This document shows positions 14,109 through 43,627 of a stretch of 64,000 bases of DNA, piece by piece. Origin of the DNA: Paludisphaera mucosa (GTDB lineage Bacteria > Planctomycetota > Planctomycetia > Isosphaerales > Isosphaeraceae); assembly GCF_029589435.1 (NCBI RefSeq), contig NZ_JARRAG010000002.1, positions 5,022,001-5,086,000 on the forward strand. Reading direction: 5' to 3'. The position numbers were made by a program, and so were the translations under genes. Position 1 is the stretch's first letter, and each line of letters opens with the position of its first letter. The notes below the pieces were generated by a model. That model was given only the letters and a program-made list of their open reading frames with translations, made no database searches and was not told the DNA's origin.

Positions 14109-14291
14109 GGGGAGAGGCCCTCTTCGCGGAAGGATCCGGTCGGGCGCGCGGGCGGGGCGACGAACTCCGTCCGTCGACATCACCCATCGGATCAGACCCC
14201 GAAGCCCCCCGCAAGGACCCGCCGGCCTCGCGCCAGGCGCGGGCCGGGGGCGCCCGGGCGGAGCGATCGGCGGCGGGGGCGATCGTTGTCG

Positions 14292-14960: not shown

Positions 14961-15099
14961 GGATTGTGGCTCCGAAGGGGGTGGATCTCGAACACCAGGC
15001 CGCACCCGGATCCTACCGCGTCCCGCACTCGAACGTGTTGGGACGCCGATCGGCGCTCACAAAAAGATTCGGATGCCCTCGTCCCGCGAACTCCGTGCC

Positions 15100-15771: not shown

Positions 15772-16040
15772 GGCGGCCTCGAGTTTCCATCGGGCGGACG
15801 GCGCCGACGACTGCGCGGCTCGCAACGGCGCGAGGGAGATCGCCTCGGTCGGGGCGCGGCCCAGTAGAACGGAATCCTCGAATCGTGCAATCTCGCATCC
15901 GGCCTGGTCGTCGGTTTTCGAGGCAGGGCGGGGCCGACCCGGAGGGCCTTGCGGACCCCTTGGCGGGCGTCGGGGGGTGTGATAACGTCGGTGGACTTCT
16001 GGGGGCGCACAGGTCGAAGCCGCGGCGGGGGGATGGGGCG

Positions 16041-17231: not shown

Positions 17232-17252
17232 CCTGAGCCCCGAGGCCCGCGC

Positions 17253-18083
17253 ATGAGCGTACCTTTGGGCGACGACGCGTCGTGGGCCGAGGCCCCCGGC
17301 CCCGGGCGGCCGCGCCAGGCCAAGCTGGCCTCGCTGCTGTACGCCCCGGCCGAGGTCCGCGAGCGGTCGCGGCGCATTTATGAGGCCCTGATCGACGAGT
17401 CGCCCCAGATCCGAGCGGGCAACTTCTCGCGGCTCGCCGTCGACGACCTGGAACGACTCTTCCGCCTCTACGACGCCGGGTTCTTCCGGGGCTTCCTCTC
17501 GGAGATGCTCCAGGAGGACCGGGCCTACCCGATGGCCTTCCGGCTCTCGCGCCGGCTGACCCGCGCCGCCGGCCAGACGATCCGCCTGGTGCGCCGGATC
17601 CGGCGCGGGGGGGTGGTGGTCGAGCAGCCGGAGTACGAGATCTCGGTCTCGACGACCTTGCTCTTCAACACCTTCCAGGACGTCGACCGCGAGGTCGTCG
17701 TCGGCGGACTGGCCTGCTCGGACCGCCTGGAGGCGCTCCAGCGGATCTTCGAGCACGAGCTGCTGCACCTGGCCGAGTTCCTGGGCTGGGGCCGATCGAG
17801 CTGCTCGGCCGAGAACTTCCACGCGCTCTCGCGGCGGATCTTCGCGCACGAGGGTGTGCGGCACGACCTGGTCACCCCCCGCGAGCAGGCGGCGTCGGCC
17901 TTCGGCGTCCGCGTGGGCGACGCCGTCGAGTTCGACATGGAGGGATCCCGGCTCCGCGGCCGCGTCAACCGCATCACACGCCGCGCCACCGTGCTCGTCG
18001 AACACCCCTCCGGAGCCCTCTTCACCGACGGCCGCCGCTACCAGACCTTCTACGTCCCGCTGGCGCTGCTGCGGAAGTTATGA
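17253..18083 (+). CDS. SprT-like zinc metalloprotease domain protein with C-terminal SH3/KOW-like tail
   Basis: This is a 276-residue cytoplasmic protein. The zinc-protease motif HELLH lies at residues 168-172 after RLEALQRIFE, followed by LAEFLGWG and the later SRRIFAHEG, as in SprT-like domains. The N-terminal ~100 residues are helical and charged. The C-terminal ~55 residues (VRVGDAVEFDMEGSRLRGRVNRI, VLVEHPSG) look like a small beta-barrel of the SH3/KOW sort that could bind nucleic acid. SprT/Spartan relatives act on DNA-protein crosslinks; whether this protein does is untested. It follows the propeller gene closely. Confidence 0.8.
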   Translation: MSVPLGDDASWAEAPGPGRPRQAKLASLLYAPAEVRERSRRIYEALIDESPQIRAGNFSRLAVDDLERLFRLYDAGFFRGFLSEMLQEDRAYPMAFRLSRRLTRAAGQTIRLVRRIRRGGVVVEQPEYEISVSTTLLFNTFQDVDREVVVGGLACSDRLEALQRIFEHELLHLAEFLGWGRSSCSAENFHALSRRIFAHEGVRHDLVTPREQAASAFGVRVGDAVEFDMEGSRLRGRVNRITRRATVLVEHPSGALFTDGRRYQTFYVPLALLRKL

Positions 18084-18131
18084 TCGCCGCCGACGCTTGC
18101 GAGCGATTGTCGACGCCCTCGAACCCTCGGT

Positions 18132-18386
18132 ATGCTTGAACCCATGGAAGAGCGAATCCTGGAAGGGACCTGGGAAGAGATCGCCAGCCGCGGGCCCGAG
18201 CTGGCCGGTCGCAGGGTGCGCCTCACGGTTCTCGACGAGCCGGAGTCGGGCGGGCCGCTCGACGTGGCCCTCGCCCCCCTGATCGCGATCGCCGAGCGTT
18301 TGACGAGTCCGACGCCCGCCGAGTCGAGCGTCGATTGGTCGGAGGGCGTCGTCGAAAAATTCCGACGACAGGGATTCGACTTGTGA
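18132..18386 (+). CDS. Antitoxin-like protein of a PIN-type toxin-antitoxin pair
   Basis: This 84-residue protein contains LEGTWEEIASRGPELAGRRVRLTVL, a pattern common in small antitoxin-like proteins next to PIN toxins in cyanobacteria and planctomycetes. The C-terminus (DWSEGVVEKFRRQGFDL) is the probable toxin-binding part. The start may be the ATG at 18132 or, four codons on, at 18144; neither has a strong ribosome site. Its stop overlaps the toxin start (GTGA), so translation is probably coupled. Antitoxin identity rests mainly on context and is moderate. Confidence 0.75.
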   Translation: MLEPMEERILEGTWEEIASRGPELAGRRVRLTVLDEPESGGPLDVALAPLIAIAERLTSPTPAESSVDWSEGVVEKFRRQGFDL

Positions 18387-18793
18387 TCCTCTGCGACGCC
18401 GGCCCGCTCTTCGCCCTCGTGGACTCACGGCAGGCGGAGGCTCATCGGCGTTGCAAGGCGGCGCTCGCCGGGCTCTCCTCGCCTCTCGTCACCACTTGGC
18501 CGAGCTTCACGGAGGCGATGTATCTCGCCCACCGGTCGGGCGGGTGGCCGATGCAGGCGATCCTATGGAGTTTCGTCGTCGAATCCTTCCTCGCGTTCCA
18601 TGAGCCGGCACCCGGGGAGACCGAGCGGATGGCCGGCCTGATGGAGCAATATCGCGACGTCCCGATGGACCTGGCTGACGCCACTCTCGTGGCGACGGCG
18701 GAGAGCCTCGGCCTGTCTCGGATCTTCACTCTCGACCACCACTTCCGTGTGTATCGCATCGACGGCGTCCGGGCGTTCGACGTCGTGCCCTGA
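18383..18793 (+). CDS. PIN-domain ribonuclease toxin (VapC-like)
   Basis: This 136-residue protein starts at the GTG at 18383-18385, which overlaps the TGA of the antitoxin gene. Longer in-frame starts would run back into that gene. The PIN acidic residues are present: Asp in ILCDAGPLFALVD near the N-terminus, Glu in FTEAMYLAH, Asp in PMDLADATLVATAE, and Asp in IFTLDHHFRVY. Related proteins are Mg-dependent RNases that cut tRNA or rRNA when freed from the antitoxin. The length is typical of VapC. Confidence 0.88.
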   Translation: MILCDAGPLFALVDSRQAEAHRRCKAALAGLSSPLVTTWPSFTEAMYLAHRSGGWPMQAILWSFVVESFLAFHEPAPGETERMAGLMEQYRDVPMDLADATLVATAESLGLSRIFTLDHHFRVYRIDGVRAFDVVP

Positions 18794-18800
18794 CCAAATT

Positions 18801-18823
18801 CCCGACCCCCCTGCAAGGTCGGG
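18801..18823 (+). terminator. Hairpin between the toxin gene and the sigma-factor gene
   Basis: CCCGACC (18801-18807) and GGTCGGG (18817-18823) form a perfect 7-bp stem with a 9-nt loop, 8 bases after the toxin stop. No T-tract follows, so it is either a weak terminator or an RNA structure ahead of the sigma-factor gene. Confidence 0.35.
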
Positions 18824-18850
18824 CCGGACTGCGGCAACTTACTCTGCACC

Positions 18851-19417
18851 ATGAGCGAGGAACGCCCGCGACGAATGGATGCGGAGGGCCCGGACTGGGG
18901 CGGCGTGCTGGCCCGGCACGACGGCTGGCTGCGGCGCGTGGTGTCGGCCCGGCTGCGGGAGCCGCAGGGGGTCGACGAGGTGATGCAGGAGGTCGCGCTG
19001 GCGGTCGTCGCCCAGCGGGCCCCGCTGCTCGACCCCGCGCGGCTCGGCGGCTGGCTGTATCGTCTGGCGGTGCGTCAGGCGCTTTTGCACCGCCGCAAGG
19101 CGGGCCGCGGGCGGGCGCTCATCGGCCGGTGCGCGACGGCCCGGCCCGCGGCCGAGGCGGCTCCCGAGCCGTCGCCGCTGGCCTGGCTGCTGCACGACGA
19201 GCGCCGGGATCTCGTCCGCCGGGCCTTGGACCGCCTGCCGCCCCGCGACGCAGACCTGCTGGCGCTCAAGCACGGCGAGGGCTGGAGCGCCCGCGAGTTG
19301 GCCGAACGGCTGGGCGTGGGCGTGCCCGCGATCGAGGCCCGGCTCTCGCGCGCCCGGAAACGGCTCCGGGCCGAGCTGCAATCCCTGACCGGCGACTTCG
19401 AGGAGCACGACCCATGA
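18851..19417 (+). CDS. ECF-type RNA polymerase sigma factor
   Basis: This 188-residue protein has a sigma-70 region 2 (residues ~20-85: HDGWLRRVVSARLREPQGVDE, LGGWLYRLAVRQALLHRR) and region 4 (~118-175: RRALDRLPPRDADLLALKHGEGW, with the helix-turn-helix SARELAERLGVGVPAIEARLSRARKRL). It lacks regions 1 and 3, as ECF factors do. The stop overlaps the next start by 4 bases (ATGA at 19414-19417). The downstream membrane protein is its likely regulator. Target promoters are unknown. Confidence 0.9.
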   Translation: MSEERPRRMDAEGPDWGGVLARHDGWLRRVVSARLREPQGVDEVMQEVALAVVAQRAPLLDPARLGGWLYRLAVRQALLHRRKAGRGRALIGRCATARPAAEAAPEPSPLAWLLHDERRDLVRRALDRLPPRDADLLALKHGEGWSARELAERLGVGVPAIEARLSRARKRLRAELQSLTGDFEEHDP

Positions 19418-20025
19418 GCCACGACGACCTCGACGTCGCGATCGACCGCATCGTCGACGGCGGATTATCCCCGACCGGCCTCCGCGAAGCCCTGGCCCGC
19501 GTCGAGTCCGCCCGCGACGGCTGGCGGCGCTGCACGCTCGCTTTTCTGGAGGCCCAGTGCCTGGACGAGGTCCTGCGACGCCCGGCCGCGCCCGAGGCGA
19601 CGAGCCGGCCCGCCCTCACGCTCGCCGCCGAGGCCTCGGCCCGTCGCCGGTCCCTCCGCCCGGCGCTCGCGGCGGCCGTGGCGCTGGCGGCCTTCGGCGC
19701 GGGCTGGTTCGCGGGCGGGACGGCGTCGCGTCGCGACCCGGGACCCTCGGTCGCGATCGTCGAGGCCGCCCCCGCCGCCGGAACGCGTCCCGAACCCCGA
19801 CCCGATCCCGGGCCGAGGTCGAAGCCAGGGCCGGAGCCGATCCCGTCGTGGGTGTTGAACCAGCCGATGCCCGTCTCGGCCGACGCCCAGGCCTCGCTCC
19901 AGGCGCGCGGCTATCGACTCGACCAGCGGCGTCGTATCGTCGCCGCCCGCCTCGCCGACGGCCGCCGCGTCGTGGTCCCCGTCGACCGCGTCGGCGTCCG
20001 CTACGTCGGCGGCGAGACGCTCTAG
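19414..20025 (+). CDS. Single-pass membrane protein, probable anti-sigma partner
   Basis: This 203-residue protein is coupled to the ECF gene by an ATGA overlap. The N-terminal ~90 residues are soluble and helical (DDLDVAIDRIVDGGLSPTGLREALARVE, RRCTLAFLEAQCLDEVLRR). One membrane helix follows (LRPALAAAVALAAFGAGWFAGG), then a Pro-rich periplasmic linker. The C-terminal ~55 residues (SLQARGYRLDQRRRIVAARLADGR, VVVPVDRVGVRYVGG) look like a small sensor domain. Position and topology fit an anti-sigma factor. No HxxxCxxC zinc motif is present, so the call depends on context. Confidence 0.75.
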   Translation: MSHDDLDVAIDRIVDGGLSPTGLREALARVESARDGWRRCTLAFLEAQCLDEVLRRPAAPEATSRPALTLAAEASARRRSLRPALAAAVALAAFGAGWFAGGTASRRDPGPSVAIVEAAPAAGTRPEPRPDPGPRSKPGPEPIPSWVLNQPMPVSADAQASLQARGYRLDQRRRIVAARLADGRRVVVPVDRVGVRYVGGETL

Positions 20026-20043
20026 CCCGATCCCATCCCGGTC

Positions 20044-20217
20044 GTCCTTCCCCCCTCGTGGGAGAAGGTGGCCCGGAAGGCCGGATGAGGGGGAACACCC
20101 TCGTCGGGCCGACGGACTTCGAGGCCCGGGGCTCGCATGGAATGCGACGGGCTTTCGTCGGATGACGAGCCCCTCATCCGGCCTTCGGCCACCTTCTCCC
20201 ACGAGGGGGGAAGGACG
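20044..20217. repeat. REPIN-like inverted pair, element B (nearly perfect)
   Basis: Unit 1 (20044-20092) reads GTCCTTCCCCCCTCGTGGG, AGAAGGTGGCC, AAGGCCGGATGAGGGG. Unit 2 (20170-20217) is its near-exact reverse complement. The ~77-bp spacer has its own outer inverted bases (CCTCGTCGG against CGACGAAAG/GACGAG). The two arms could form a ~45-bp cruciform or RNA stem. It lies between the probable anti-sigma gene and the PDZ gene. Confidence 0.85.
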
Positions 20218-20304
20218 ATCGCCCGAGTTCACGAATGACCTTTCGATCGAGCGCAACTCGGAAATTCCGGCCCGTCACTGAATCCCTTACGGAGATCCTC
20301 GACC

Positions 20305-21405
20305 ATGCTTCGATTCGTCGCCTGCCTGCTGCTCGCCCCGCTCGGCCTGCAAGACGGCCCGGCCGTCCCGACGTCCGGGATGACGCAGGAACCGGCCGGT
20401 GAGAAGCCCGCCGCCGTCCATTCCGTGAATTTCGCCCGGCCGCTGCAAGGATTCGCCGAGTTCCAGGGCGCCACGGCCTTCCAGGCCGCGGACGGGAACC
20501 TGGGTTGGATCGCCGAACTGACGGGGCAATCGAACCTCGCCCTGACGAAGCTCGACGACGCGACCCGCGGCCAGCTCGGCGTCGCCGAGGGCCGCGGCCT
20601 GATCGTGACCTCGGTCCGGGCCAACGGGCCGGCGTGGGAGGCCGGCGTCCGCGAGCAGGACGTTTTGCTGACGCTGGGCGACCAGCCGCTGGCCGAAATC
20701 GACGACCTCGATCGCCTGCTGAAGAAGTCGGGCGACCAGCCCGCGACCCTCACGCTGCTCCGCAAGCGGAAGCCGCTGACGCTCAAGGTCATGGCCCGCG
20801 TCCAGGTCGAGCTCGGCCCGATCGAGGAGAAGGCGCCGGAGTACTGGATCGGCGCGAGCGTCGAGCCGATCGCCGCGGTCCTGCGGGAGCAGCTCGACCT
20901 GCCGGCCGACCAGGGCCTGAGCGTGTCGCGGCTCGTCGACGGGGCCCCCGCCGCCAAGTGCGGCCTCAAGGTCCACGACGTGCTCCTGACCGTCGACGGC
21001 GCGACGGTCCCCGACGCGGCCGGCCTGCTGGAACGCGTCGGCAAGGCGGGGGCCAAGGCCATGCACCTGGAAGTGCTCCGGGCCGGCGAGCGACGCACCC
21101 TGGTCGTCACGCCGGAGAAGCGGCCCCTCCACGACGTCACGAATCGGTCCTACACGTTGTTCCATCAATCCCCGACGACGGCGACCTACACGAACAAGTA
21201 CGTCGACGTCTTCCGCCCCGGCGTGGTCGTGGGCGACGGCGGCCAGACGCTCCAGGGCCTGCTCGCCGAATCGATGCGGTCGCGCACCGCCCCCGCGCCG
21301 GACGCCGACGCCGCGACGAAGCGGATCGACGAGATCGCCGCCGAGATCAAGGCCCTGCGCGAGGCCGTCGAATCGCTCCGCAAGGCCCTCGAAACGAAGG
21401 AGTGA
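20305..21405 (+). CDS. Secreted protein with two PDZ domains
   Basis: This 366-residue exported protein has a short signal peptide (LRFVACLLLAPLGLQ). PDZ 1 spans about residues 90-165 (GRGLIVTSVRANGPAWEAGVR, QDVLLTLGDQPL). PDZ 2 spans about 185-275 (DQGLSVSRLVDGAPAAKCGLK, HDVLLTVDGATV). The C-terminus is a coiled coil (TKRIDEIAAEIKALREAVESL). No protease domain is present, so it is a peptide-binding scaffold or adaptor rather than a DegP-type enzyme. It follows the sigma/anti-sigma pair after repeat element B. Whether it belongs to the same regulon is not shown. Confidence 0.88.
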   Translation: MLRFVACLLLAPLGLQDGPAVPTSGMTQEPAGEKPAAVHSVNFARPLQGFAEFQGATAFQAADGNLGWIAELTGQSNLALTKLDDATRGQLGVAEGRGLIVTSVRANGPAWEAGVREQDVLLTLGDQPLAEIDDLDRLLKKSGDQPATLTLLRKRKPLTLKVMARVQVELGPIEEKAPEYWIGASVEPIAAVLREQLDLPADQGLSVSRLVDGAPAAKCGLKVHDVLLTVDGATVPDAAGLLERVGKAGAKAMHLEVLRAGERRTLVVTPEKRPLHDVTNRSYTLFHQSPTTATYTNKYVDVFRPGVVVGDGGQTLQGLLAESMRSRTAPAPDADAATKRIDEIAAEIKALREAVESLRKALETKE

Positions 21406-21427: not shown

Positions 21428-23329
21428 TCAGCCCTCGCCCCGCTCGATCGCCTCGACGACCTCGGCCGGAGCGGCGGGGTCGGTCGGGGGGTCGAGGCGG
21501 CCCTGCTCGGCGGAGCGGACGAGGTCGGCGAAGTGGCCGTCGGCCTGGACGAGCTGGCCGTAGGTGCCGCTCTCGACGACCTTGCCGTCCTCGAAGACGA
21601 GGATGCGGTCGGTGTCCAGCAACGTCGTCAGCCGGTGGGCGACGAGGATCACCGTGCGGTCGGCCCGCGCGGCGTCGACGGCCTTCTGGACCCTCCGCTC
21701 GCTGATGTTGTCGAGCGCCGAGGTCCCCTCGTCGAGGATCAGGATCGGCGGGTTCTTGAGGAAGATCCGCGCCAGCGCGATCCGCTGCCGCTGGCCGCCG
21801 GAGAGGTTCTGGCCGCGCTCGGCGACCCGGGCCCGGTAGCCGCCGGGCATCATCATGATCTCGTCGTGGATGCAGGCGGCCTCGGCGGCCCGGCGGATCC
21901 CCTCGTGGGTGACGTCGCGGCAGCCGTAGGCGATGTTCTGGGCGATCGACCCCGAGAAGACGAACGGGTTCTGCCCCACGTAGCCCACCAAGTCGCCGAT
22001 CGACTCGCGCGAGACGCTCTCCAGCGGCACCCCGCCGAACCAGACGCGGCCCGACGTCGGGTGGACGAGCCGCATCAGCACCCGCAGCCACGTCGTCTTG
22101 CCGCAGCCCGAGCGGCCGGCCATGCCGATCGTCTCGCCGTGGCGGACCACCAACGACAGCCCCTCCAGCGCCTGGCGGCCGTTCTCGATCGTCCGCGGGT
22201 ACCTCACCCCCACGTCCTCGGCCACGAACAGGGGTTCGCCTAGCGCCAGGACCGGCGTGCGGGGGTCGACGGGCTTGAACGAGGGGTCGATCGGCTCGCG
22301 CAGCAGGCCGATCAGGTCGCCGACGCGCAGGCTGCTCTCGTGGGCCTCGTCGATGAAGCGGTGGACCTCGTTGAGCGGCGCCATCACGTTCAGGTAGAGG
22401 ACCGAGAACGTGAAGATGTCGCCCAGGTTGATCCGCCCGTGCATGTAGAACGAGACGGCCAGGGCCAGCACGACCAGGTGGAAGAGCCCCTCGTTGAGCG
22501 CCTTGCCGCAGCCGAAGAGCGACATCTGGAAGTGGTGCCGCAGCTCCATGGAGCGCTTCCGCTCCGCGGCCTTGGCCACCCGGCGGACCTCGCGTTTGTG
22601 GGTGTTCGAGGCCCGCACGTAGTCGATGCCGCTGAGCTGCTCGACGACGGTGCCGTCCATCCGCTCGCGGGTGCGCAGCAGGTCGAGCCGCACCCCCTTC
22701 TGGGTGACGATCTGGGCGACGGTCAGGCCGAGCGAGATCGGCACCACGCCGAGCATCGCCAGCGCGACCCAGGGCTGCTGCGTCACGGCGTACGAGATGG
22801 CGAAGCCGCCCGTGAACAGCGCGGGGACGAAGTCCAGGAAGCTGATCCGCAGGAACCGCACGAACCCGTCGGCGCTGCGGGTCACCCGGCCGTACAGCGC
22901 GCCCACCTGGTCCTGCGCCAGCGAGGCCAGGTCGACCTTCATCAGGTGGGAGACCAGCCGCACGCACATGTCCTTGTCGATCCGCGTGCAGGCCCGCTCG
23001 ACCAGGAAACGCCGCAGGACGTTCATCGTCTCGCGGACCAGGTATCCCATGCCGATCAGCGCGAGGTAGCCCGCCGCCGTCCGGGCGATCTCATCCGCCG
23101 GCCGGTTCCGGCCGTCGGCCGAGGGCCCGATGGCGTTCACCAGCTTCCCCAGGAAGATGGCGCTGGCCGTGCCGCCGGCGCTGGCGAGGCCCATGACGAC
23201 CAGGGCCATCGCCAGCGAGGCCCGGTGCCGCCAGGGGACGAGCCGCCAGACCTGCCCGCCCCGCCGCCGGATCCGCGACAGCTCGCGACCGACCTCCCGC
23301 AACCGCCTCGCCACGCTCTCTCGCGCCAT
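21428..23329 (-). CDS. ABC transporter, fused membrane and ATPase domains
   Basis: This 633-residue half-transporter has an N-terminal six-helix exporter-type membrane domain (residues ~30-330: ASLAMALVVMGLASAGG, AIFLGKLVNAIG, GDIFTFSVLYLNVMAPLNE). A C-terminal ATPase follows: Walker A GRSGCGKTT (~402), signature LSGGQRQRIALARI, Walker B ILILDEGTSALD (~528), H-loop VAHRL. It is of the lipid/polysaccharide/drug exporter type (MsbA/MDR-like) and probably works as a homodimer. The ATG at 23327-23329 is preceded by GGAGAAGCG; a TTG six codons upstream is less likely. The substrate is unknown. A cyclic glucan synthase gene lies about 10 kb away on the same strand with an exporter-sized gap, so glucan export is only a possibility. 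Confidence 0.92.
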   Translation of the reverse strand: MARESVARRLREVGRELSRIRRRGGQVWRLVPWRHRASLAMALVVMGLASAGGTASAIFLGKLVNAIGPSADGRNRPADEIARTAAGYLALIGMGYLVRETMNVLRRFLVERACTRIDKDMCVRLVSHLMKVDLASLAQDQVGALYGRVTRSADGFVRFLRISFLDFVPALFTGGFAISYAVTQQPWVALAMLGVVPISLGLTVAQIVTQKGVRLDLLRTRERMDGTVVEQLSGIDYVRASNTHKREVRRVAKAAERKRSMELRHHFQMSLFGCGKALNEGLFHLVVLALAVSFYMHGRINLGDIFTFSVLYLNVMAPLNEVHRFIDEAHESSLRVGDLIGLLREPIDPSFKPVDPRTPVLALGEPLFVAEDVGVRYPRTIENGRQALEGLSLVVRHGETIGMAGRSGCGKTTWLRVLMRLVHPTSGRVWFGGVPLESVSRESIGDLVGYVGQNPFVFSGSIAQNIAYGCRDVTHEGIRRAAEAACIHDEIMMMPGGYRARVAERGQNLSGGQRQRIALARIFLKNPPILILDEGTSALDNISERRVQKAVDAARADRTVILVAHRLTTLLDTDRILVFEDGKVVESGTYGQLVQADGHFADLVRSAEQGRLDPPTDPAAPAEVVEAIERGEG

Positions 23330-23790
23330 CGCTTCTCCAGCCCCCAAAGTCGCACCGACCCGTCACCTCGCCCCGGGCCGACCCCGCGCGGCCGCGAGGC
23401 CGCCGCCCGCCTCTCCGGTCCATGGTACGGATCGGGCCGCCGGTCGTGCGAGGACCGCTCCGGCGATTCGCCCGATTTCCGGCCCGCCCGCCGCGACCTT
23501 CGAAGGCGTTTCTTAAGAATTTGGAAAACCGTGGGGAACGTCCCACGCTCTTTCCGGAAAACGCGTACTAAGTTTGTGAGCGACGGGGACGAACAGATCC
23601 CCACCGTCGCCGCCAGGCCCGACGGGGCGCGGAGGATCGTGTCGAACGCCTGTTCTTCACGATTCCTTAAGGCGCCCCGCACATCGCCTCCCCGGCCGCT
23701 CTGAAGAATCGCCTTCGGCGCGCCGTTTGCTCTTCGCCACCATAGGACCGGAGCGGCTATCCGCCAGGCTTTGCAGGAGGTCTTCCAACC
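23330..23790. other. 461-bp intergenic region with clustered palindromes
   Basis: This divergent region separates the ABC transporter (minus) from a small plus-strand ORF. No family-supported gene is present. Its A+T content rises around 23510-23580, unlike its surroundings. It carries the palindrome cluster described at 23497-23560 and should hold the promoters of both flanking genes. Confidence 0.6.
23497..23560. promoter_or_regulatory. Cluster of three 10-bp palindromes and a hairpin
   Basis: CCTTCGAAGG (23497-23506), TTCTTAAGAA (23510-23519) and TTTCCGGAAA (23551-23560) are perfect palindromes. Between them CGTGGG (23530-23535) and CCCACG (23542-23547) form a stem that can extend through GGAAA and TTTCC. 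GGAAAAC occurs twice. Such a cluster could be a regulator-binding region or an RNA structure for either divergent gene; this is inference. Confidence 0.4.
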
Positions 23791-24057
23791 ATGTTTCCAA
23801 GCGAGGGTTACTTGAGTCCCGTTCTGATCGCCACCGACGTGTCGCCCACCGCCCCTTCCGTCGACCTCGTCCCCCCGGGCCGCGGGGCCGTCGCCGTGCG
23901 ACGGCCGCCCTCGCCCCGCGAGGAAGCCTTGATCGTCGACGAACGGTCGGGCCTGCGGCCCGCCTGCGTCGTCGAGTCCAAGCTCACCCGTCTCCTGAAA
24001 GAAGCCTCGCTGCCCGCCAGCCGCCTCCAGATGCGCGCCATGCTCAAGGCGCGTTGA
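23791..24057 (+). CDS. Small hypothetical protein
   Basis: This 88-residue ORF has a strong ribosome-binding site (GCAGGAGG, about 10 nt before the ATG), which is the main argument that it is real. The product has no recognised domain. The N-terminal half is hydrophobic and Pro-rich (YLSPVLIATDVSPTAPSVDLV). The C-terminal half is basic and helical (VVESKLTRLLKEASLPASRLQ, MRAMLKAR). There is no signal peptide or membrane helix. It stands alone between divergent and convergent neighbours in an otherwise gene-poor stretch. Confidence 0.5.
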   Translation: MFPSEGYLSPVLIATDVSPTAPSVDLVPPGRGAVAVRRPPSPREEALIVDERSGLRPACVVESKLTRLLKEASLPASRLQMRAMLKAR

Positions 24058-24417: not shown

Positions 24418-27400
24418 TCATGCACCCACAGCGTCATCATCAAGTGGAAACATAACGATTTCCACATAACGATGACGGCCGTCGTCGACGAGGGGGATCT
24501 CGGCCGTCTCCTGAATGACGCCGTCGATGGCGACTCGCGTCCGCCCACGCTCGCGTGCGTCGGGGTTGAGGACGTGGATCTCGTAGCGGGTCGCGCCGAA
24601 GCGGTAGTCGACCTGGAAGCGTTCCCACGATGAGGGGATGCGCGGGTCGAGGCTCAGGCGGTCGCCGCGGCGTCTCACGCCGAGGATGCTTTCCAGGCCC
24701 GCCTGGTAGAGCCATCCCGCCGCGCCCGTGTACCAGGTCCAGCCGACGCGGCCGAGGTGAGGGGCCTTGCCGAAGACGTCGCCGGCCAGGGCGTAGGGCT
24801 CACCTTTGTAACGCCGGAAGTCATCCTTACAAAGGGTGTGGCGGATCGGGTCGAGGTGCTCGAACCATTTCAGGGCCGATTCCCCCCGCCCCAACCCGGC
24901 TGCGGCCTGGACGACCCAGGCGGCGGCGTGGGTGTATTGGGCCCCGTTCTCGCGGGTGCCGGGGACGTAGCCCTGGATGTAGCCCGGGCTCGGCTTCGAC
25001 CGGTCGAAGGGGGGGGCGAGCAGCAGGACGAGCCGGTCGGCCTCGCGCACGAGCTGCGCCTCGACGGCGTCGAGGGCCCGGGCCGAACGGGACGCGTCCG
25101 CGCCGGCGAAGACGGACCACGACTGGGCCAGCGAGTCGATCCGGCACTCGGCGTTCGCGGCCGAGCCCAGCGGCGAGCCGTCGTCGAAGTAGGCGCGGCG
25201 ATACCAGCCGCCGTCCCAGGCGTGGGATTCGGCCGCCGCGACCAGGGCGTCGGCCTGGGACCGCCAGCGGCGGGCGCGGTCCGCGTCGCCGCGCGCCTCG
25301 GCGATCGGGGCGAAGCGGCGGAGGACGACGCTCAGGAACCAGGCGAGCCAGACGCTCTCGCCCTTCCCCTCGACCCCCACGCGGTTCATGCCGTCGTTCC
25401 AGTCGCCCCCGCCCATCAGGGGCAGGCCGTGGGCGCCCCGAGGGCTCGAGCGGTCGAGCGCCCGGACGCAGTGCTCGTAGAGCGAACCGGCGGCCGAGGC
25501 GACGCTCGGCAGCCGGTAGTCGTCCTCCTGGCCGGGCGCGAGCGCGGGGGCTTCGAGGAACGGGACCTCGACGTCGAGCACGCCGCGGTCGCCGGTCGTC
25601 TCGACGTATCGCGAGGCGACGAACGGCAGCCAGAGGTAGTCGTCCGAGTACCGCGTGCGCACCCCCCGGCCCGCGGGCGGGTGCCACCAGTGCTGGACGT
25701 CGCCCTCGACGAACTGCCGCGAGGCGTGCAGCAGGACCTGCTCGCGCGCCAGGCCGGGCGCGGCGTGCAAGAGGGCCAGGGCGTCCTGGAGCTGGTCGCG
25801 GAAGCCGAAGGCCCCGCCCGACTGCGAGAACGCGGTCCGCCCCCAGAGCCGGCAGCTCGTCGTCTGGTACAGCAGCCAGCGGTTGATCAGCAGGTCGAAC
25901 GACGGCTCCGGGGTGCGGACCTGGACGGCGCCCAGGAGTTCGTCCCAGCGGGCCGTCGCCCCTTCGAGCGCGGCGGCCGCGCCGACGTTCCGGACGTGGG
26001 CCAGCAGCTCGCGGACCTGGCCGGGGGCGTCGGCCCAGCCCAGCAGGAAGACGACCTCGAGCGACTCGCCGGGGCCCAGGTCGAGCTTCGTCTGGACCGC
26101 GCCGCAGGGGTCGAGCCCCGCGCCGACGCGGCCGGAGAGGGCGACCTGGCCGAGGGCCGAGGGGTTGGCGATCGAGCCGTGGCGGCCCAGGAACTCGCCC
26201 CGGTCGCCGGTGACGGTCCGCGGCCGGCGGTCGACGTCGAGGAACGCGACGCCGGCGGCGAAATCCTCGCGGAGGGCGTTGCGGGCCGTGAGCGCTCCGG
26301 TCTCGGCGTCGACGGCGGTGACGACGTGCATGGCCGAGCGGTCGCGGGTCGTCCCCAGCACCCACTCGGCGTAGAAGGTCGCGGAGAGCTTCCGCGGCGT
26401 CGTCCCCGGGTTCTTGAGGCGGAGGCGGAGGTACTTGACGGGCCGCTCGGGGTCGACGTAGACGTCGAGCCGGTGCTCGATCCCGTGGCTGTTGCGTTCG
26501 AACGTCGTGCGGCCCTGGCCGTGGCGGACGAGGACCGCGCCGGCCGAGGGGATGGGCAGGGGCGTGGGGCACCAGACCTGGCCGGCCTCCTCGTCGCGGA
26601 GGTAGACGACCTCGGCGGAGGGGTCGGAGACCGGGTCGTTGCTCCAGGCGGTCAGCCGGTTCGCCTGGCTGTTCCCCGCCCAGGTCGCCTGCGAGCCCCC
26701 CTCGGTGACCAAAAACCCGATCGTCGGGTTGGCGATCACGTTGCTCCAGGGCAGGGGGGCGAGCGCCGGCCGGGGCAGCGGCTGGCGCGCGGCCGATGCG
26801 CCGTTGCCGTCGGGCCGGCCGGGCGTGTCGATGAGGATGCAGTACTCGCGGCCGTCCGGCGTGAAGCCGCCGAGGCCGTTGGGGAAGAGGAGGCCGTCGG
26901 GCGCCGTCACGGGCTCGTCGCGCCGCGGCGTGGTCGGGGGCGAGGCGGTGAGCAGCTCGGGGAGTTCCGGGCTCCAGTCGACGGCCTCGAGCTGGTCGGC
27001 CAGCGGCCCGTCGGCGGCGTCGAGGATCACGCGGGCGGCCGCGGCCAGCGTCCCCCGCGCGGCGGGGTCGAGGGCGGCGCCGGGGACGACGTGGATCCCG
27101 CCCGGCTGGTTCACGCGTCCGGCGACGCCGACCTCGCGGGCCGCGGCGTCGAGCGGCCCGCCCAGGCCGGGGGCCGGGGCGTCGTCGAGGAACACCAGGT
27201 CGAACTCCAGGCCCTTGAGGCGGAGATACGCCTGCCCCGCCATGAGCTGGCGGGCCAGCGACAGCTCGGGCGCGTCGGCGATCCGCGCCAGCACGATCGG
27301 CAGCCCCAGGCCGACGCCGTGGCGGGCGAGCACCCGGGGGGCGGGCTCGACCGGGTCGGGGGCCGGCGGCCGGGCGCGCAGGGCCGGGCCGGCGAAGATC

Positions 27401-30400
27401 AGGTGCGAGGCCAGGCGCTGGAACAGGTGCGCCTCCTCGGCCGACCAGCCGCGCTGGCCGTTCTCGGCCTGGCGGTGGGCCCAGGCCATCTCGAAGGCGC
27501 GGGCCGAGGCGCTGGGGCCGTGGTACTGGTCGGCCAGCGCGACGGCCCCCGCTCGGTTCTCGGCGACGGCCGTCGTGAACGCCAGGACGACCGTGCCGCC
27601 CGGCGCCAGCGTCAGGCGGCGGCGGAGGCTGAAGATCGGGTCGAGCACCGGCCCGACCGACCCCGAGAGCGCCTCGCCCGGGTCGAGCGCCGCCGGGTCG
27701 GCGACGGTCCGGCCCCGGCCCAGGAACCGCTCGCGGTCGGTCTCGAACGTCGCCTCGCCGACGAGCGTGCAGCCCGCGGAAGAGCCGTCGACGGCCAGGA
27801 CGTGGACGGCCCAGAGGGGCTCCTCGTGCGGCGACCGCGGCCGCCGCCGGCAGAGCAGGGCCGCCGATCCGGGGAGCCATTCCGTCTCCAGGAACAGCTT
27901 GTGGAACGCGGGGTGCGCCAGGTCGGCGTCGTGGCGGGCCAGGACGACCTCGGCGTAGCTGGTGACGTCCAGCTCCCTCGGCTTCGAGCCGTGGTTGAAC
28001 AGGGTCAGGCGGCGGACCTCGGCGAACTGCTCGGGCGAGACGGTCACCTCCAGCAGGCTCTCGACCGAGCCGTCGCGGCGGCGGAACGTCGCCTTGTCGG
28101 CGGCGAAGACGATCTCGTCCTCGTCGGCCGGCCGGCAGACCGGCTGGAACCCCGCCGACCAGACCAGGCCGCTGGCGACGTCGCGGATGTAGAGGAACTG
28201 GCCGTACGCCTCCCGCGCCGGGTCCTCGCGCCAACGGGTCACGGCGAACCCGCGGCACGAGCTGGCGCCCGCGCCGGCGTTGGTGATCATCACGTGGTAC
28301 TGGGCGTTGGAGAGCAGGTGGGTGCGAGGCGCGGCCGTCGCGGGGGTCGTCAACCTGCGGCTGAGGAAGCTCGGCGCGGGGGGCTGCTCGGCCGCCGGCG
28401 CGCCGCCCGCCCCTTCGGCGTCTGCCCCCTGGCCGTAGTCGGCGTCCAGGTCCACCAGCGGCGTGTCGCGGGGCACGCGTTCTTGAAGGAGCAGCTCGGC
28501 GGCGCGGACCATGGGCTCGGCGTGGAACCGCCGCGGCATGAGGTCGCCGAGCACGACGTTGGCGGCTGCCACCAGGCTCATCCCCTGGTGGTGGCTCATG
28601 TACGACCGGACGACCACCGAGTGCTGGCCGGGCGCGAGCCGCGAGGGCGTGTAGTCGACCGCCTCGTACCAGCCGAAGGGGCCCTCGGCGCCCTCGGACG
28701 TCAGCCGCTTGAGGTTCTCGACGGCCGCGGCGGGGGCGATCATCGTGGCCATCGCGGTCGCGTACGGCGCGATCACCCGGTCCTCGTCGAGGCCCTGCTT
28801 GATCCCCAGGCCGGGCGCGCCGAACGCCTGGTAGCGGTAGTCGCCGTCGGCGTACTGGGCCGAGAAGGCCGATTCCGAGATCCCCCAAGGCAGCCCGAGC
28901 TGGCCGCCGTACTCGATCTGCCGCGCGACGGCCGCGCGGCAGGCCTCGGAGAGCACCGTGTTGGACAGGCTCTTGAGCAGCAGCCGGGGCATGAGGTACT
29001 CGAACATCGTCCCGCCCCACGAGATCAGGCCGATCCGCCCGGCCGCGCGGACGAACGGCCGGCCGAGCTGGAACCAGTGCTTGCGGGGGGCCTCGCCGCG
29101 GGCGATCGTCAGGTAGCTCGTCAGGCACGACTCCGACGCCAGCAGGTCGTAGCAGGCGCCGTCGAGCCGCCCCTGCGACAGGTTGCAGCCGATCGCGTAG
29201 AGGTGCTTCTCCTTCTTGTAGAGCGGGCGGAAGTCCATCTCCCGGCCCATCGCGTCGGCCCGATCGGCCAGCGCCGAGAGCCGCCCGGCCAGCACGGCCG
29301 CCGCGGGCCGCGAGGCCGCGAGCGTCTTCAGCGTCGGGGCCGCCGCCCCGGCCGGGAACGCCTCCCCGCCGGTCAGGGCGTCGAGCTGTCGGCGGTGGTC
29401 GCGGACCTGCTCCAGCAGCTTCCGGCCCCAGATCTTGGCCGCGGCGAAGTCGCCCTCGCGACGCCCGGCCTCGGCCGCGACCGCGTCGTTCAGCCGCTCG
29501 GCCTCGGCCTCCACGCGGTCGAGCCAGCTCCGCCAGCCGGGGACGTCCGCCGGCGGCGCGTCGAGCAGCGCCCGCAGCCGCGAGGCGTCGAGGCCGCCGA
29601 CCTCCAGCGCCAGGTTCAGCGCGTCGGCCAACCCCTCCGCGACGGCCGGGCCGACGATCGGCTCGCCGGCCTTCTCGATCAGCCCCTGCCGCAGGGCGAC
29701 CAGGCAACCCAGCAGGTTGCCGCTGTCGACCGTCGAGATGTAGAGCGGCGGCAGCGCCTCGAGCGTCTGCGTCTGGTACCAGTTGTAGAAGTGGCCCCAG
29801 TGGCGTTCGAGCCGGTCCAGGGTGTCGAAGGTCCGCTCCAGGCGGTCGAGCATCGTCCCCAGCGACAGGAAGCCCAGGTCGTGGGCCGACAGCGTCGAGA
29901 TCAGCAGCAGCCCCTTGTTGGTGGGCGACGTCCGATGCGCGACGCGGCCGTCGGGGACCTCCTGGAAGTTGTCGGGCGGCAGCCAGTGGTCCTCGTCGCC
30001 GACGAAGGTCTCGAAGTACCGCCAGGTCTTCCGCGCCAGGCGTCGCAGCGCCCGACGCGGCTCGGCGCCCAGGGGCACCTCGGTCGAGGGCAGGGGGCGG
30101 CTGATCCCGTAGGCCACGAGCGGCGAGAGGAGCCAGGCCAGCAGGATCGGCGCGGCGCACCAGAGCGACTCCGGCCGCAGCCAGGCGACCGCCGCCAGGA
30201 TCAAGATCGCCACCGCCGGCGCCTGCCACATCGATCGGACGAAGTCGCCCAGGCCGCCGCCCAACCGCTGCTCGGTCGACGCGGCCGTCTCCCACTCCAA
30301 CATCCGCTCATGGCTCACGTACTGGCGGTACAGGGTCCGCACGATCGCGTCGACCGCCTGCCGGGCCTGGTCGGGCAGGAAGGCCAGCGACAGGAGCGAC

Positions 30401-33051
30401 TGGCCGCCCAGCGAATAGACGCTCTCCCACCAGCCCCGGAACGGCCCGATCGAGGCGCTGCGGATCGCGCCCACGGTCGTCGCCGTGAGCCACTTGAGGA
30501 CCGGCTGGGCCAGGACCAGCAGCGCCACGCCCGTCCAGAGCCAGGGCGAGCCCGGCATGACGGTCCAGCCGAGGGCCAGCATCAGGACGATCGCCGGCGC
30601 GACCAGGCTGCGGCGCAGGTTGTCCAGCAGCTTCCAGCGCTCGAGCGTCGGCAGCGGGTTGGGCCGGGTCTTCCCGCCCGGCAGCGGGACGTTCGGGCCG
30701 AGCCACGGCAGGAGCTGCCAGTCGCCCCGGATCCAGCGGTGCTCGCGACGCGCGTAGGCGTGGTAGCGGGCCGGGAAGTCGTCGAAGACCTCGGTGTCGC
30801 TCAGCAGGCCGCAGCGGGCGTAGTTGCCCTCGATCAGGTCGTGGCTGAGGATCCGGTTCTCGGGGAAGATCTCGCCCGTGGCCCGCTCGAAGGCGTCGAC
30901 CTCGTAGACCCCCTTGCCCGTGAAGCTGCCGATCCCGTACAGGTCCATGTACGAATCCGAGGCGGCCGTCGAGTACGGGTCGATGCCGCCCCCCGACGCC
31001 AGCAGGCGGGCGAAATACGAGTGCGTCGCGGCCGTCAGGTGGAAGTTCACCCGGGGCTGGAGCACGCCGTAGCCCTCGACCACCCGCCCGCTCGCCGCGT
31101 CGAACCGGGGCCGGTTGAGCGGGTGCGCGATCGTGCCCACCAGCCGCATCGCCGTGTCGCGCGGCATCTGGGTGTCGGAGTCGAGCGTGATCACGAACCG
31201 GAAGTGCGGCAGCGTCGCGGGGTCGACGCTGAAGACGTCGTAGCTGCCGCCGGCGACGTCCCCGCGCAAGAGCTTGTTGAACTCCGAGAGCTTGCCGCGT
31301 TTGCGCTCCCAGCCCATCCACGACCCCTGCGACGGGTTCCAGAGCCGCCGCCGGTGGAAGATGTAGAAGAGGTCCTCGCCGCCCGACGTCGAGGCGTACC
31401 GCGCGTTCAGGGCCCGCACGCGTTCCAGGGCGTCGTCGATCAGGGCCTGGTCGTTGGGCATGTGCTCGCTGGGGGCGTCGGCGAAGTCGGTCAGCAGGGC
31501 GAACCGCAGGTTGGGGTCGGGGTTGGAGAGGTAGTGGATCTCCAGCCGTTCCAGCAGGCCCGCGGCGTGGTGCGGCCGGATCAGCATCGTCGGGATGACC
31601 ACGAACGTCCGGTGCTCGTCGGGGATCCCCTTCTTGAACTCCAGCTTGGCGAGGACCTTGGGCGGCATCACGATCGTCAGGGTGTGGTTGATGAAGCCGA
31701 CGGCCACCTCGCCCACCGGCATCGCGAGGAGGGCCAGGAACGCGAGCAGGCCGAGCGTCCCGAACGACGCGGCCCCGGCGATCCAGACGCAGGCCGAGGC
31801 GATCACGAGCCAGGTCGCGACGATCGACCCGAAGTACACGACGTGCGGGTGCGCGCGGGCCGCCTCCTGCAGCCGCTCGACCCGGGGGCCGCGGTAGGGG
31901 AAGCTCGCGCGGAGGTCCTTGAGCCCGTCCTCGAGCAGCCAGTAGCCGACGTGACGGCGACGGTGGTCGGACGGGTCGGCCCCGGCGGCCAGCTCGACGG
32001 CGCGGCGGGCGACGGCCAGCTCGTCGGCCTTCGACCCTCGCGCGGTCCTCTCGACGACCTTGCGGCAGCGGTCGCAGGTCGCGAAGTCCTGCAGCGCGTA
32101 CGAGCCCGAGGGGTCGTCCAGCAGGATCTTCTGGACGAGGCTCTGCTGCTCGAAGAAGGCGTTCCAGTCGACGGCCGAGAGCAGCCGGAGGCTGACGACC
32201 GAGTTGCCGACGGTCACCTGGTTCGCCGCCTGGCGGTGGTTCTCGCGGCCGACGAGGTCGTCGACGTCGATCCCCCGGGCCTTGAGTCGGTCGTGGACGG
32301 CGGCGGCGGCGGGCGCCGTCGTCCCCGGGGCGCGCGGGGCCTGCATCAGGCGGGCGACGAACGGGCCCGACGGCTCACCGATCGCGGGCCGTTCGGCCTC
32401 GGCCGCGGCGAGCCACGCGTCGGCCCGGCGCCGCTCGCGCCACGACCAGACCATCTCCTCGGCCAGTCGCCGCAGGTTCTCCAGGAGGACCAGGCGGAGC
32501 ATGGTCGGCAGGGCCCAGAGCTCGCCGATGGTGAGCGGAGACTCCTGCTGGAAGGCGGCGACGAAGCGGTTGAGCCGGGCCTCGTCGAACTCGGCGTCGG
32601 TGTGCGCCGCCAGGGCGATGGCGATCGCGTAGGCCCGGGGATAGCCCTTCAGCGGCGTGGCGGCCAGCTTGGGGAGGACCGCGTCATAGCCCTGGGGCAT
32701 GTCGCGGCGGACCTCCTTCAGCACCTCGTCGACGATGTGGAAGTTGTCCAGGAGCCACTCGACGTCGATCCCGCGCGCGTGCTCGTCGCCGGCGACGATC
32801 CGGGCGTGGACCTGTTCGAGGACCTTGCCGTTGTCGGCGAACCGCTTCAACAGCGGGCTGCCCGCCCGCCGGCGACGCGCCGTGACGCCCGCCCCGGCGA
32901 GCGCCCGCGCCAGCCGCTCCAGCCGGTCCGTCCCCAGCAGCTCGCCGCGGATCGGGCCCGCGCGGCGGGGGTCCAGGAGTTCGATCCACGCCCCCTCCCC
33001 GCCGTCCGTCGCCGTCGCGGACGAGGGCCCCCCCAAATACGTTGCGCTCAT
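24418..33051 (-). CDS. ndvB: Cyclic beta-1,2-glucan synthase (NdvB/ChvB-type, GT84-GH94)
   Basis: This 2,877-residue membrane enzyme has the full NdvB layout: a soluble N-terminal region (to ~390), membrane helices (VVYFGSIVATWLVIASACVWI, TLGLLAFLALLAMPVGEVA near ~400), and a GT84 catalytic region with DSDTQMPRDT (~622) and HRWIRGDWQLLPWL (~772). More helices follow. A glycoamylase-like domain (GPFGWYEAVDYTPSRL, ~1450) precedes two glucan-phosphorylase-like parts ending in the GH94 motif GGGDWNDGMNRVG (~2550). In Rhizobiaceae and Brucella this enzyme initiates, extends and cyclises beta-1,2-glucan from UDP-glucose and controls chain length by phosphorolysis. The length is close to the known ~2,800-2,870. 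The ATG at 33049-33051 (MSATYLGG) is preferred; an upstream frame adds 30 Gly/Arg-rich residues. No ndvA-type exporter is adjacent. Confidence 0.93.
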   Translation of the reverse strand: MSATYLGGPSSATATDGGEGAWIELLDPRRAGPIRGELLGTDRLERLARALAGAGVTARRRRAGSPLLKRFADNGKVLEQVHARIVAGDEHARGIDVEWLLDNFHIVDEVLKEVRRDMPQGYDAVLPKLAATPLKGYPRAYAIAIALAAHTDAEFDEARLNRFVAAFQQESPLTIGELWALPTMLRLVLLENLRRLAEEMVWSWRERRRADAWLAAAEAERPAIGEPSGPFVARLMQAPRAPGTTAPAAAAVHDRLKARGIDVDDLVGRENHRQAANQVTVGNSVVSLRLLSAVDWNAFFEQQSLVQKILLDDPSGSYALQDFATCDRCRKVVERTARGSKADELAVARRAVELAAGADPSDHRRRHVGYWLLEDGLKDLRASFPYRGPRVERLQEAARAHPHVVYFGSIVATWLVIASACVWIAGAASFGTLGLLAFLALLAMPVGEVAVGFINHTLTIVMPPKVLAKLEFKKGIPDEHRTFVVIPTMLIRPHHAAGLLERLEIHYLSNPDPNLRFALLTDFADAPSEHMPNDQALIDDALERVRALNARYASTSGGEDLFYIFHRRRLWNPSQGSWMGWERKRGKLSEFNKLLRGDVAGGSYDVFSVDPATLPHFRFVITLDSDTQMPRDTAMRLVGTIAHPLNRPRFDAASGRVVEGYGVLQPRVNFHLTAATHSYFARLLASGGGIDPYSTAASDSYMDLYGIGSFTGKGVYEVDAFERATGEIFPENRILSHDLIEGNYARCGLLSDTEVFDDFPARYHAYARREHRWIRGDWQLLPWLGPNVPLPGGKTRPNPLPTLERWKLLDNLRRSLVAPAIVLMLALGWTVMPGSPWLWTGVALLVLAQPVLKWLTATTVGAIRSASIGPFRGWWESVYSLGGQSLLSLAFLPDQARQAVDAIVRTLYRQYVSHERMLEWETAASTEQRLGGGLGDFVRSMWQAPAVAILILAAVAWLRPESLWCAAPILLAWLLSPLVAYGISRPLPSTEVPLGAEPRRALRRLARKTWRYFETFVGDEDHWLPPDNFQEVPDGRVAHRTSPTNKGLLLISTLSAHDLGFLSLGTMLDRLERTFDTLDRLERHWGHFYNWYQTQTLEALPPLYISTVDSGNLLGCLVALRQGLIEKAGEPIVGPAVAEGLADALNLALEVGGLDASRLRALLDAPPADVPGWRSWLDRVEAEAERLNDAVAAEAGRREGDFAAAKIWGRKLLEQVRDHRRQLDALTGGEAFPAGAAAPTLKTLAASRPAAAVLAGRLSALADRADAMGREMDFRPLYKKEKHLYAIGCNLSQGRLDGACYDLLASESCLTSYLTIARGEAPRKHWFQLGRPFVRAAGRIGLISWGGTMFEYLMPRLLLKSLSNTVLSEACRAAVARQIEYGGQLGLPWGISESAFSAQYADGDYRYQAFGAPGLGIKQGLDEDRVIAPYATAMATMIAPAAAVENLKRLTSEGAEGPFGWYEAVDYTPSRLAPGQHSVVVRSYMSHHQGMSLVAAANVVLGDLMPRRFHAEPMVRAAELLLQERVPRDTPLVDLDADYGQGADAEGAGGAPAAEQPPAPSFLSRRLTTPATAAPRTHLLSNAQYHVMITNAGAGASSCRGFAVTRWREDPAREAYGQFLYIRDVASGLVWSAGFQPVCRPADEDEIVFAADKATFRRRDGSVESLLEVTVSPEQFAEVRRLTLFNHGSKPRELDVTSYAEVVLARHDADLAHPAFHKLFLETEWLPGSAALLCRRRPRSPHEEPLWAVHVLAVDGSSAGCTLVGEATFETDRERFLGRGRTVADPAALDPGEALSGSVGPVLDPIFSLRRRLTLAPGGTVVLAFTTAVAENRAGAVALADQYHGPSASARAFEMAWAHRQAENGQRGWSAEEAHLFQRLASHLIFAGPALRARPPAPDPVEPAPRVLARHGVGLGLPIVLARIADAPELSLARQLMAGQAYLRLKGLEFDLVFLDDAPAPGLGGPLDAAAREVGVAGRVNQPGGIHVVPGAALDPAARGTLAAAARVILDAADGPLADQLEAVDWSPELPELLTASPPTTPRRDEPVTAPDGLLFPNGLGGFTPDGREYCILIDTPGRPDGNGASAARQPLPRPALAPLPWSNVIANPTIGFLVTEGGSQATWAGNSQANRLTAWSNDPVSDPSAEVVYLRDEEAGQVWCPTPLPIPSAGAVLVRHGQGRTTFERNSHGIEHRLDVYVDPERPVKYLRLRLKNPGTTPRKLSATFYAEWVLGTTRDRSAMHVVTAVDAETGALTARNALREDFAAGVAFLDVDRRPRTVTGDRGEFLGRHGSIANPSALGQVALSGRVGAGLDPCGAVQTKLDLGPGESLEVVFLLGWADAPGQVRELLAHVRNVGAAAALEGATARWDELLGAVQVRTPEPSFDLLINRWLLYQTTSCRLWGRTAFSQSGGAFGFRDQLQDALALLHAAPGLAREQVLLHASRQFVEGDVQHWWHPPAGRGVRTRYSDDYLWLPFVASRYVETTGDRGVLDVEVPFLEAPALAPGQEDDYRLPSVASAAGSLYEHCVRALDRSSPRGAHGLPLMGGGDWNDGMNRVGVEGKGESVWLAWFLSVVLRRFAPIAEARGDADRARRWRSQADALVAAAESHAWDGGWYRRAYFDDGSPLGSAANAECRIDSLAQSWSVFAGADASRSARALDAVEAQLVREADRLVLLLAPPFDRSKPSPGYIQGYVPGTRENGAQYTHAAAWVVQAAAGLGRGESALKWFEHLDPIRHTLCKDDFRRYKGEPYALAGDVFGKAPHLGRVGWTWYTGAAGWLYQAGLESILGVRRRGDRLSLDPRIPSSWERFQVDYRFGATRYEIHVLNPDARERGRTRVAIDGVIQETAEIPLVDDGRHRYVEIVMFPLDDDAVGA

Positions 33052-33213
33052 GCCGTCGTTCTCATCCCCGCTGCCCGCCCGCCGGGCCGGATTCGCCCCG
33101 GCCCCGACCGCCCCGCGACCCCGTCCCCCGGATCCTACCATAAACCGGGGCGTCGCGGTCGCCGTCGCGGGCCCGGCGGCGACCCCGCGCCGCGCGTTCC
33201 GGTCGCGGCCGAG

Positions 33214-39837: not shown

Positions 39838-40052
39838 GCCGCCACATCCAGCCTGGTGCGCTGATCAGCAGAGGGGGGACGCTGGATCACCTCTCGACCC
39901 CGCTCGACTTGTGCCGTATTTGAGCCCGCTTCGGGCGGTAGGATGAGGAGCCGTCATGACGATTGTCGACCGGGCGCCGTCGAGTTAGACTCGCGTGGGC
40001 GAACGATCGCCTCCAGGGCTTTGCTGATTCCGAGGCCGGCGGACGCTCACCG

Positions 40053-41273: not shown

Positions 41274-43627
<2,354 letters not shown>

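Follow-up and report, generated by a model that had tools for sequence, protein, structure and literature searches.

The best-known sources of cyclic beta-1,2-glucans are rhizobia and Brucella, and to our knowledge NdvA/Cgt is the one characterised exporter of these rings. The periplasm of planctomycetes, the phylum considered here, is unusually large. Among the described synthases, Agrobacterium Cgs/NdvB (8rf0 and 8rf9) is the main point of comparison, and the available part of PMC10901819 provides the roles of its glycosyltransferase Asp residues, its priming Tyr, and D2393 and D2528 of its GH94 part. The roles of the cyclase residues of TiCGS come from the available part of PMC10834661, and further functionally important residues were taken from the accessible text of PMC11842490.

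We analyzed a 64,000-nt stretch (hereafter the window, meaning the whole stretch) of an 8.2-Mb Isosphaeraceae genome (G000), in which a synthase gene of this kind is followed by a small gene and a gene for an ABC half-exporter (Table 1). The window probably holds a planctomycete cyclic beta-1,2-glucan module, comprising a predicted synthase, an ABC exporter outside the NdvA family, and a small accessory protein. The presence of the synthase in a planctomycete is not new, and by itself the gene is ordinary. Of more interest is its conserved association with an exporter outside the NdvA family and with a small protein of an undescribed family; in related bacteria the three genes tend to travel together.

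Table 1. Positions in the window of the genes and synthase parts discussed in the text
Feature	Position	Strand	Remarks
Cyclic beta-1,2-glucan synthase ORF	24418..33141	minus	2,907 codons; likely start at 33051, giving 2,877 aa
GT84 glycosyltransferase part	30100..31650	minus	427-bit alignment to 8rf0/8rf9 (part searched separately)
GH189 cyclase part	28342..30141	minus	431 bits to 8wy1, 424 bits to 8rf9
GH94 phosphorylase catalytic part	24421..26001	minus	526 bits to 8rf9
Small protein gene, undescribed family	23791..24057	plus	88 codons; codon pattern in 22 rows
ABC half-exporter (ABC_membrane + ABC_tran, Pfam), proposed glucan exporter	21428..23347	minus	next long gene downstream of the synthase

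The synthase gene and its catalytic residues

A previous sequence-only reading of this stretch had claimed a full-length synthase of 2,877 aa at 24418-33051, with GT84, glycoamylase-like, and GH94 parts. The ORF is real and all three parts are present; it lies on the minus strand, which had been left unstated, and is open as far as 33141. The start at M31 (33051) is favored because the ORFs of four relatives (L055, L059, L060, and L050) begin at the corresponding residue. The GC contents at the three codon positions of the ORF (0.73/0.51/0.96) are like those of the other predicted genes in the window. The Pfam search detects a Glycoamylase domain (PF10091), two stretches of the GH94 supersandwich domain (PF06165), and the GH94 catalytic domain (PF17167), with no match to GT84, and the NCBIfam search of the synthase gives no match; the GT84 part is assigned because of its alignment to 8rf0. 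In phmmer, residues 95-2851 of the window synthase align to residues 56-2797 of Cgs/NdvB (8rf0) with 1974 bits (E = 0). The window synthase thus resembles Agrobacterium Cgs/NdvB, as described in the available part of PMC10901819, in its full-length alignment, the order of its parts, its catalytic residues, and its priming Tyr, but is distant from it in sequence and differs in its neighboring exporter, which is of another subfamily. Among the named loci (best 80 of 590), the Rhizobiales synthases are 38-43% identical to the window synthase on the best segment.

The GT84 part contains the DxD motif, the catalytic Asp, and RxxRW, which we take to be a GT84 motif, and these match D624, D626, D739, and the RxxRW of Cgs. 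The loss of GT84 catalytic residues, which the earlier reading had named as the observation that would speak against it, did not occur. The Tyr of the GIDPY string in the GT84 part aligns with the priming Y694 of Agrobacterium Cgs. The matches of D1104 and E1300 of the cyclase are retained as well, and the GH189 part, which matches the GH189 domain of TiCGS from Thermoanaerobacter italicus (8wy1; PMC10834661, available part), keeps the counterparts of five active-site residues (E1356, E1400, E1442, H1536, and H1537). In the GH94 part, where conservation of the catalytic Asp had been proposed as a check, the matches of both D2393 and D2528 of the phosphorylase are retained in the alignment to 8rf9. 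All mapped catalytic positions and the priming Tyr are invariant in an alignment of 13 planctomycete synthases. Judged by these alignments, the window synthase is complete and apparently intact, with its predicted active site kept.

Two other proteins of the same genome are related to parts of the synthase. A 2,083-aa protein encoded on a 180-kb contig (G000:C3:150494-156742; L045:5495-11743) has C-terminal GH94 domains and no other Pfam match, and is a second GH94 protein besides the synthase. A 554-aa protein (G000:C1:1150983-1152644, minus strand; L046:5984-7645), with an apparent signal peptide recognized by eye, resembles the cyclase domain of the synthase (82 bits) and, weakly, an endo-beta-1,2-glucanase (25 bits), and is possibly a beta-1,2-glucanase.

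Spread and phylogeny of the synthase

The rarity that the earlier reading had implied for such a synthase outside its best-known hosts turns out to be wrong. GT84 is already listed for Isosphaeraceae in the available part of PMC5352709. We found the synthase in 24 of 45 Isosphaeraceae genomes, in 102 of the 397 genomes that make up the class sample (Isosphaeraceae included), and in 42 of 392 genomes of the phylum sample; the class and phylum searches scored two first-look candidates per genome, which makes their absences weaker. In the scan of named genomes, the best 80 of 590 confirmed stretches come from Proteobacteria, Nitrospirae, Bdellovibrionota, Elusimicrobia, Clostridia, Bacteroidetes, Chloroflexi, and others.

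A synthase tree of 111 rows was built with FastTree from sequences of at least 2,300 aa; fragmentary synthases were excluded, and L131 and L181 were omitted because they lie on the same contigs as G003 and G007. In this tree, 14 Isosphaeraceae rows form one clade. Two g7 rows (G009 and G010) fall outside it, and the remaining rows from planctomycetes are dispersed over the tree (12 changes), which suggests repeated transfer. The synthases of G009 and G010 (L065 and L066) are of a different lineage and group near their counterparts in G318 and G417; these two Isosphaeraceae genomes have neither the ABC gene nor the small gene. The Fimbriiglobus synthase L210, a fragment added only in a 31-row tree, is the sister of the Isosphaeraceae clade, and for this reason we think that the class family f101 is perhaps Gemmataceae. 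The synthase sequences of L050 (G031) and L060 (G038) are each divided between two ORFs, by a frameshift or an assembly error.

The neighboring ABC exporter and its association with the synthase

A gap of 1.07 kb separates the synthase gene from the ABC gene, which follows it downstream and is likewise on the minus strand. The ORF of the ABC gene opens with TTG, with a likely start at M7 (around 23329), and the Walker A, signature, Walker B, and H-loop strings are all found in its product. The window ABC protein is like the NdvA/ChvA/Cgt exporters in being a half-size ABC protein encoded beside a synthase, as in four Rhizobiales loci. However, it scores only 214 bits on the chvA model TIGR01192 (cutoff 585) and 261 bits on NF010178 (cutoff 733), whereas the four rhizobial NdvA proteins encoded beside synthases, used as controls, score 928-1111 and 904-969 on these models. 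In the trees, in which several long branches meet, the group of the window ABC protein and the rhizobial NdvA proteins form separate starred clades. The scores below the cutoffs and the separate clades led us to reject the window ABC protein as an NdvA orthologue. The earlier statement that no ndvA exporter stands beside the synthase is accordingly right in so far as no member of the NdvA family is found there, but an ABC exporter of another subfamily adjoins the synthase and co-occurs with it, and, on this gene content, the implied lack of an export partner is misleading.

Of the 11 ABC exporters encoded near planctomycete synthases outside Isosphaeraceae that were placed in the tree, ten join the clade of the window protein, the exception being that of G260. 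The G260 exporter (L111:15847-18663; 938 aa) is of a different type and is encoded 323 bp downstream of the synthase; its best NCBIfam score, below the cutoff, is on a cyanophycin-associated ABC transporter. Among the named loci (best 80 of 590), a full-length ABC exporter lies within 3 kb downstream of the synthase in 4 of 58, all Rhizobiales, the 58 being those of 78 named loci with at least 3 kb of sequence downstream (L131 and L181 set aside). One further ABC exporter, a weak match, lies within 3 kb upstream among these best 80 of 590 (L159). For the planctomycete loci of the phylum sample, the corresponding downstream count is 1 of 20 (G260), 20 of the 22 loci having such a flank.

We compared the occurrence of the ABC orthologue with that of the synthase. 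Within Isosphaeraceae, the orthologue is present in 22 of 24 synthase-positive genomes versus 1 of 21 synthase-negative genomes (Fisher p = 1.5e-9, kinship ignored). These orthologues are 61-100% identical to the window protein and score at least 813 bits, whereas the next paralogue reaches at most 232. In 15 of the 24 synthase-positive genomes, the ABC gene comes next after the synthase, on its strand, with gaps of 0.7-2.4 kb; it lies inverted and 30 kb from the synthase in G031, and on a different contig in six genomes. The sole synthase-negative genome with the ABC gene (G017) is 89% complete, and its ABC contig ends 225 bases past the small gene. The two synthase-positive genomes without the ABC gene are G009 and G010, and as their synthases are of another lineage, the presence of the ABC gene within the family tracks the lineage of the synthase and not the species.

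Outside the family, 23 of the 40 class genomes chosen as synthase-positive have the ABC orthologue, versus none of 40 synthase-negative ones (Fisher p = 2.6e-9, not corrected for relatedness, related genomes not being independent). The 40 positives were chosen by hand from 78 outside the family (23 of f101 and 17 mostly high-scoring), the negatives were spread by eye over genomes not among the listed class synthase matches, and 15 first-look candidates were scored per genome, which makes the absences weaker. In f101, the orthologue occurs in 16 of 23 synthase-positive and 0 of 9 synthase-negative genomes. It adjoins the synthase in 14 of the 23 chosen class genomes that have it and lies elsewhere in the remaining 9. 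In the phylum sample, where three candidates were scored per genome, 40 of the 42 genomes with a synthase yielded no ABC orthologue; the two that have it are G000 and G391 (42% over part of the length, on another contig). In addition, G264, with no detected synthase, encodes a relative of the window ABC protein that falls in its clade (47%). As far as these genomes reach, the pairing characterizes one synthase lineage and the neighbors of that lineage in the class, and does not extend to all planctomycete synthases.

We also examined the surroundings of the gene pair. In five relatives of other genera (G037, G038, G008, G014, and G027), the synthase and the ABC gene are kept amid differing flanks. 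None of the 31 other window genes tested recurs in these flanks, which span about 18 kb and cover both sides in G037 and G038 and a single side in G008, G014, and G027, except for a cupin gene with a weak match (37%) in G037 and G038. Plain background synteny was rejected as the source of the pairing, since the two genes stay together where the flanking genes differ. In the near relatives G030, G028, G032, G001, and G002, background synteny extends over about 12018-21405, so these five are not independent evidence. In 6 of 20 further class loci (L249, L253, L256, L257, L259, and L260), the synthase, the small gene, and the ABC gene form a row on one strand with short spacing, and a seventh locus (L277) has the same order on one strand. 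All seven belong to a family other than Isosphaeraceae, and these rows are likely operons.

These results are consistent with a three-part system in part of Planctomycetia, in which the non-NdvA ABC protein exports the glucan and the small protein couples the synthase to the exporter or controls one of them, a reading that we put forward tentatively, at somewhat less than an even chance. It is the gene neighborhood and co-occurrence that point to the glucan as the transport substrate. An unlikely alternative is that the synthase is an ordinary one and that the ABC protein is a lipid or lipopolysaccharide flippase like MsbA, or a drug exporter, and a neighbor by descent only. The window ABC protein shares the ABCB-type architecture of the MsbA lipid exporters and has its highest NCBIfam score on the MsbA model TIGR02203, although its 280 bits are below the cutoff of 602, and its best PDB matches (best 60 of 283) are ABCB1-type transporters. 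The synthase-positive genomes in which the ABC gene was not found (the 40 of the phylum sample and 17 of the 40 chosen in the class), as well as G264, also speak for this alternative. However, 60 of the 61 synthase-negative genomes searched yielded no ABC orthologue, which is unexpected for a housekeeping flippase, the ABC gene keeps its place beside the synthase among changing neighbors, and other ABCB-type exporters are encoded in the same genome (G000). It is still less probable that the ABC protein exports a modified glucan or another sugar of the same pathway instead of the bare ring. Its subfamily differs from that of NdvA, so its substrate may differ too, and the window has a gene for an FkbM-type methyltransferase upstream of the synthase, but this gene recurs in only 2 of 10 relatives (G030, 76%; G032, 31% over 192 aa).

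The small gene and the proposed module

The small gene is divergent from the ABC gene and convergent with the synthase gene in the window. Because it is antisense to both in Isosphaeraceae, the three genes do not form one operon there. Over 22 rows, the differences at the first, second, and third codon positions of its frame number 2988, 2148, and 5513. This frame is free of stops in all 22 rows, whereas each of the other five frames is interrupted in 6 to 19 of them, and a stop follows the frame directly in 18 of 22. On this codon pattern, an RNA was rejected as the nature of the conserved stretch in the gap. Rfam gives no match over the window at gathering thresholds, and at a relaxed threshold it gives one match in the synthase-ABC gap, far below the cutoff (24 versus 45 bits, E 0.45). 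It is highly improbable that the ORF, instead of being a gene, is open by chance or is a regulatory sequence that has been conserved. Although it is short, varies in its N-terminal half, and has no Pfam or NCBIfam match, it shows the codon pattern above, and in other families similar proteins are encoded next to the synthase or the ABC gene, in varying orientations.

The small gene (E < 1e-7) is present in 23 of 45 Isosphaeraceae genomes, exactly those with the ABC orthologue. In G031 it accompanies the displaced ABC gene, 30 kb from the synthase, and in G008 it was missed in the flank comparison and found by a separate search. Matches of the small protein at E 0.002-0.01 in the synthase-negative G021, G024, and G034 were taken as chance. 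Of the 20 further class loci, 15 have the small gene near the synthase according to a profile search (the match in L263 being doubtful); this count comes from an earlier profile, and a later profile was built partly from its matches. In the Fimbriiglobus locus L210, the small gene stands directly after the synthase. In G260, a weak match stands just before the synthase, and this is the one case among the 22 synthase loci of the phylum sample; one small-protein search, with 15 candidates per genome, missed it, which makes the absences weaker. In G493, G525, G619, G595, and G520, the small gene lies beside the ABC gene away from the synthase or on another contig, and in G448 it adjoins neither. 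None of 20 paralogous ABC loci has it, 18 of them having only a few hundred bases of flank.

The small protein has a motif that reads roughly EExLVxDxRxxLxPxQxVExKLxxLL. Searches with the small protein in Pfam, NCBIfam, and the PDB sequences give no match, or matches at E 0.084 and 0.71. A simple hydropathy scan of the window protein shows no membrane segment. The AlphaFold model (mean pLDDT 69.9, pTM 0.37) is confident only around two C-terminal helices.

By analogy with the Agrobacterium and Thermoanaerobacter enzymes, the module would work as follows. The synthase would glycosylate itself on the conserved Tyr, the GT84 domain would elongate a beta-1,2-glucan from UDP-glucose, GH94 phosphorolysis would trim it, and the GH189 domain would close it into a ring, all on the cytoplasmic side. 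The ABC half-exporter, presumably as a homodimer, would carry the glucan to the periplasm, where it may have an osmoprotective function. The small protein may be a dedicated accessory, perhaps a regulator or an adaptor of the synthase or the exporter, although this is a guess. If the pairing is functional, ring export would have been solved at least twice, by different ABC subfamilies beside the same synthase, and planctomycetes would gain a defined candidate osmolyte pathway. The comparison also names two candidate genes, one of an undescribed family, in a class with culturable members. In the openly licensed literature, taken without supplements and including parts of PMC12102758 and PMC5352709, no pairing of a planctomycete synthase with an ABC exporter is described, and the small gene is unnamed.

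Elsewhere in the window, a GH10 glycosidase gene is followed on the same strand by a putative esterase gene (39963-43627), perhaps a xylan-degrading pair. ARAGORN calls a tRNA-Pro on the minus strand at 55387-55470, inside a plus-strand HEAT-repeat ORF (53492-55639), and one of these two calls may be wrong.
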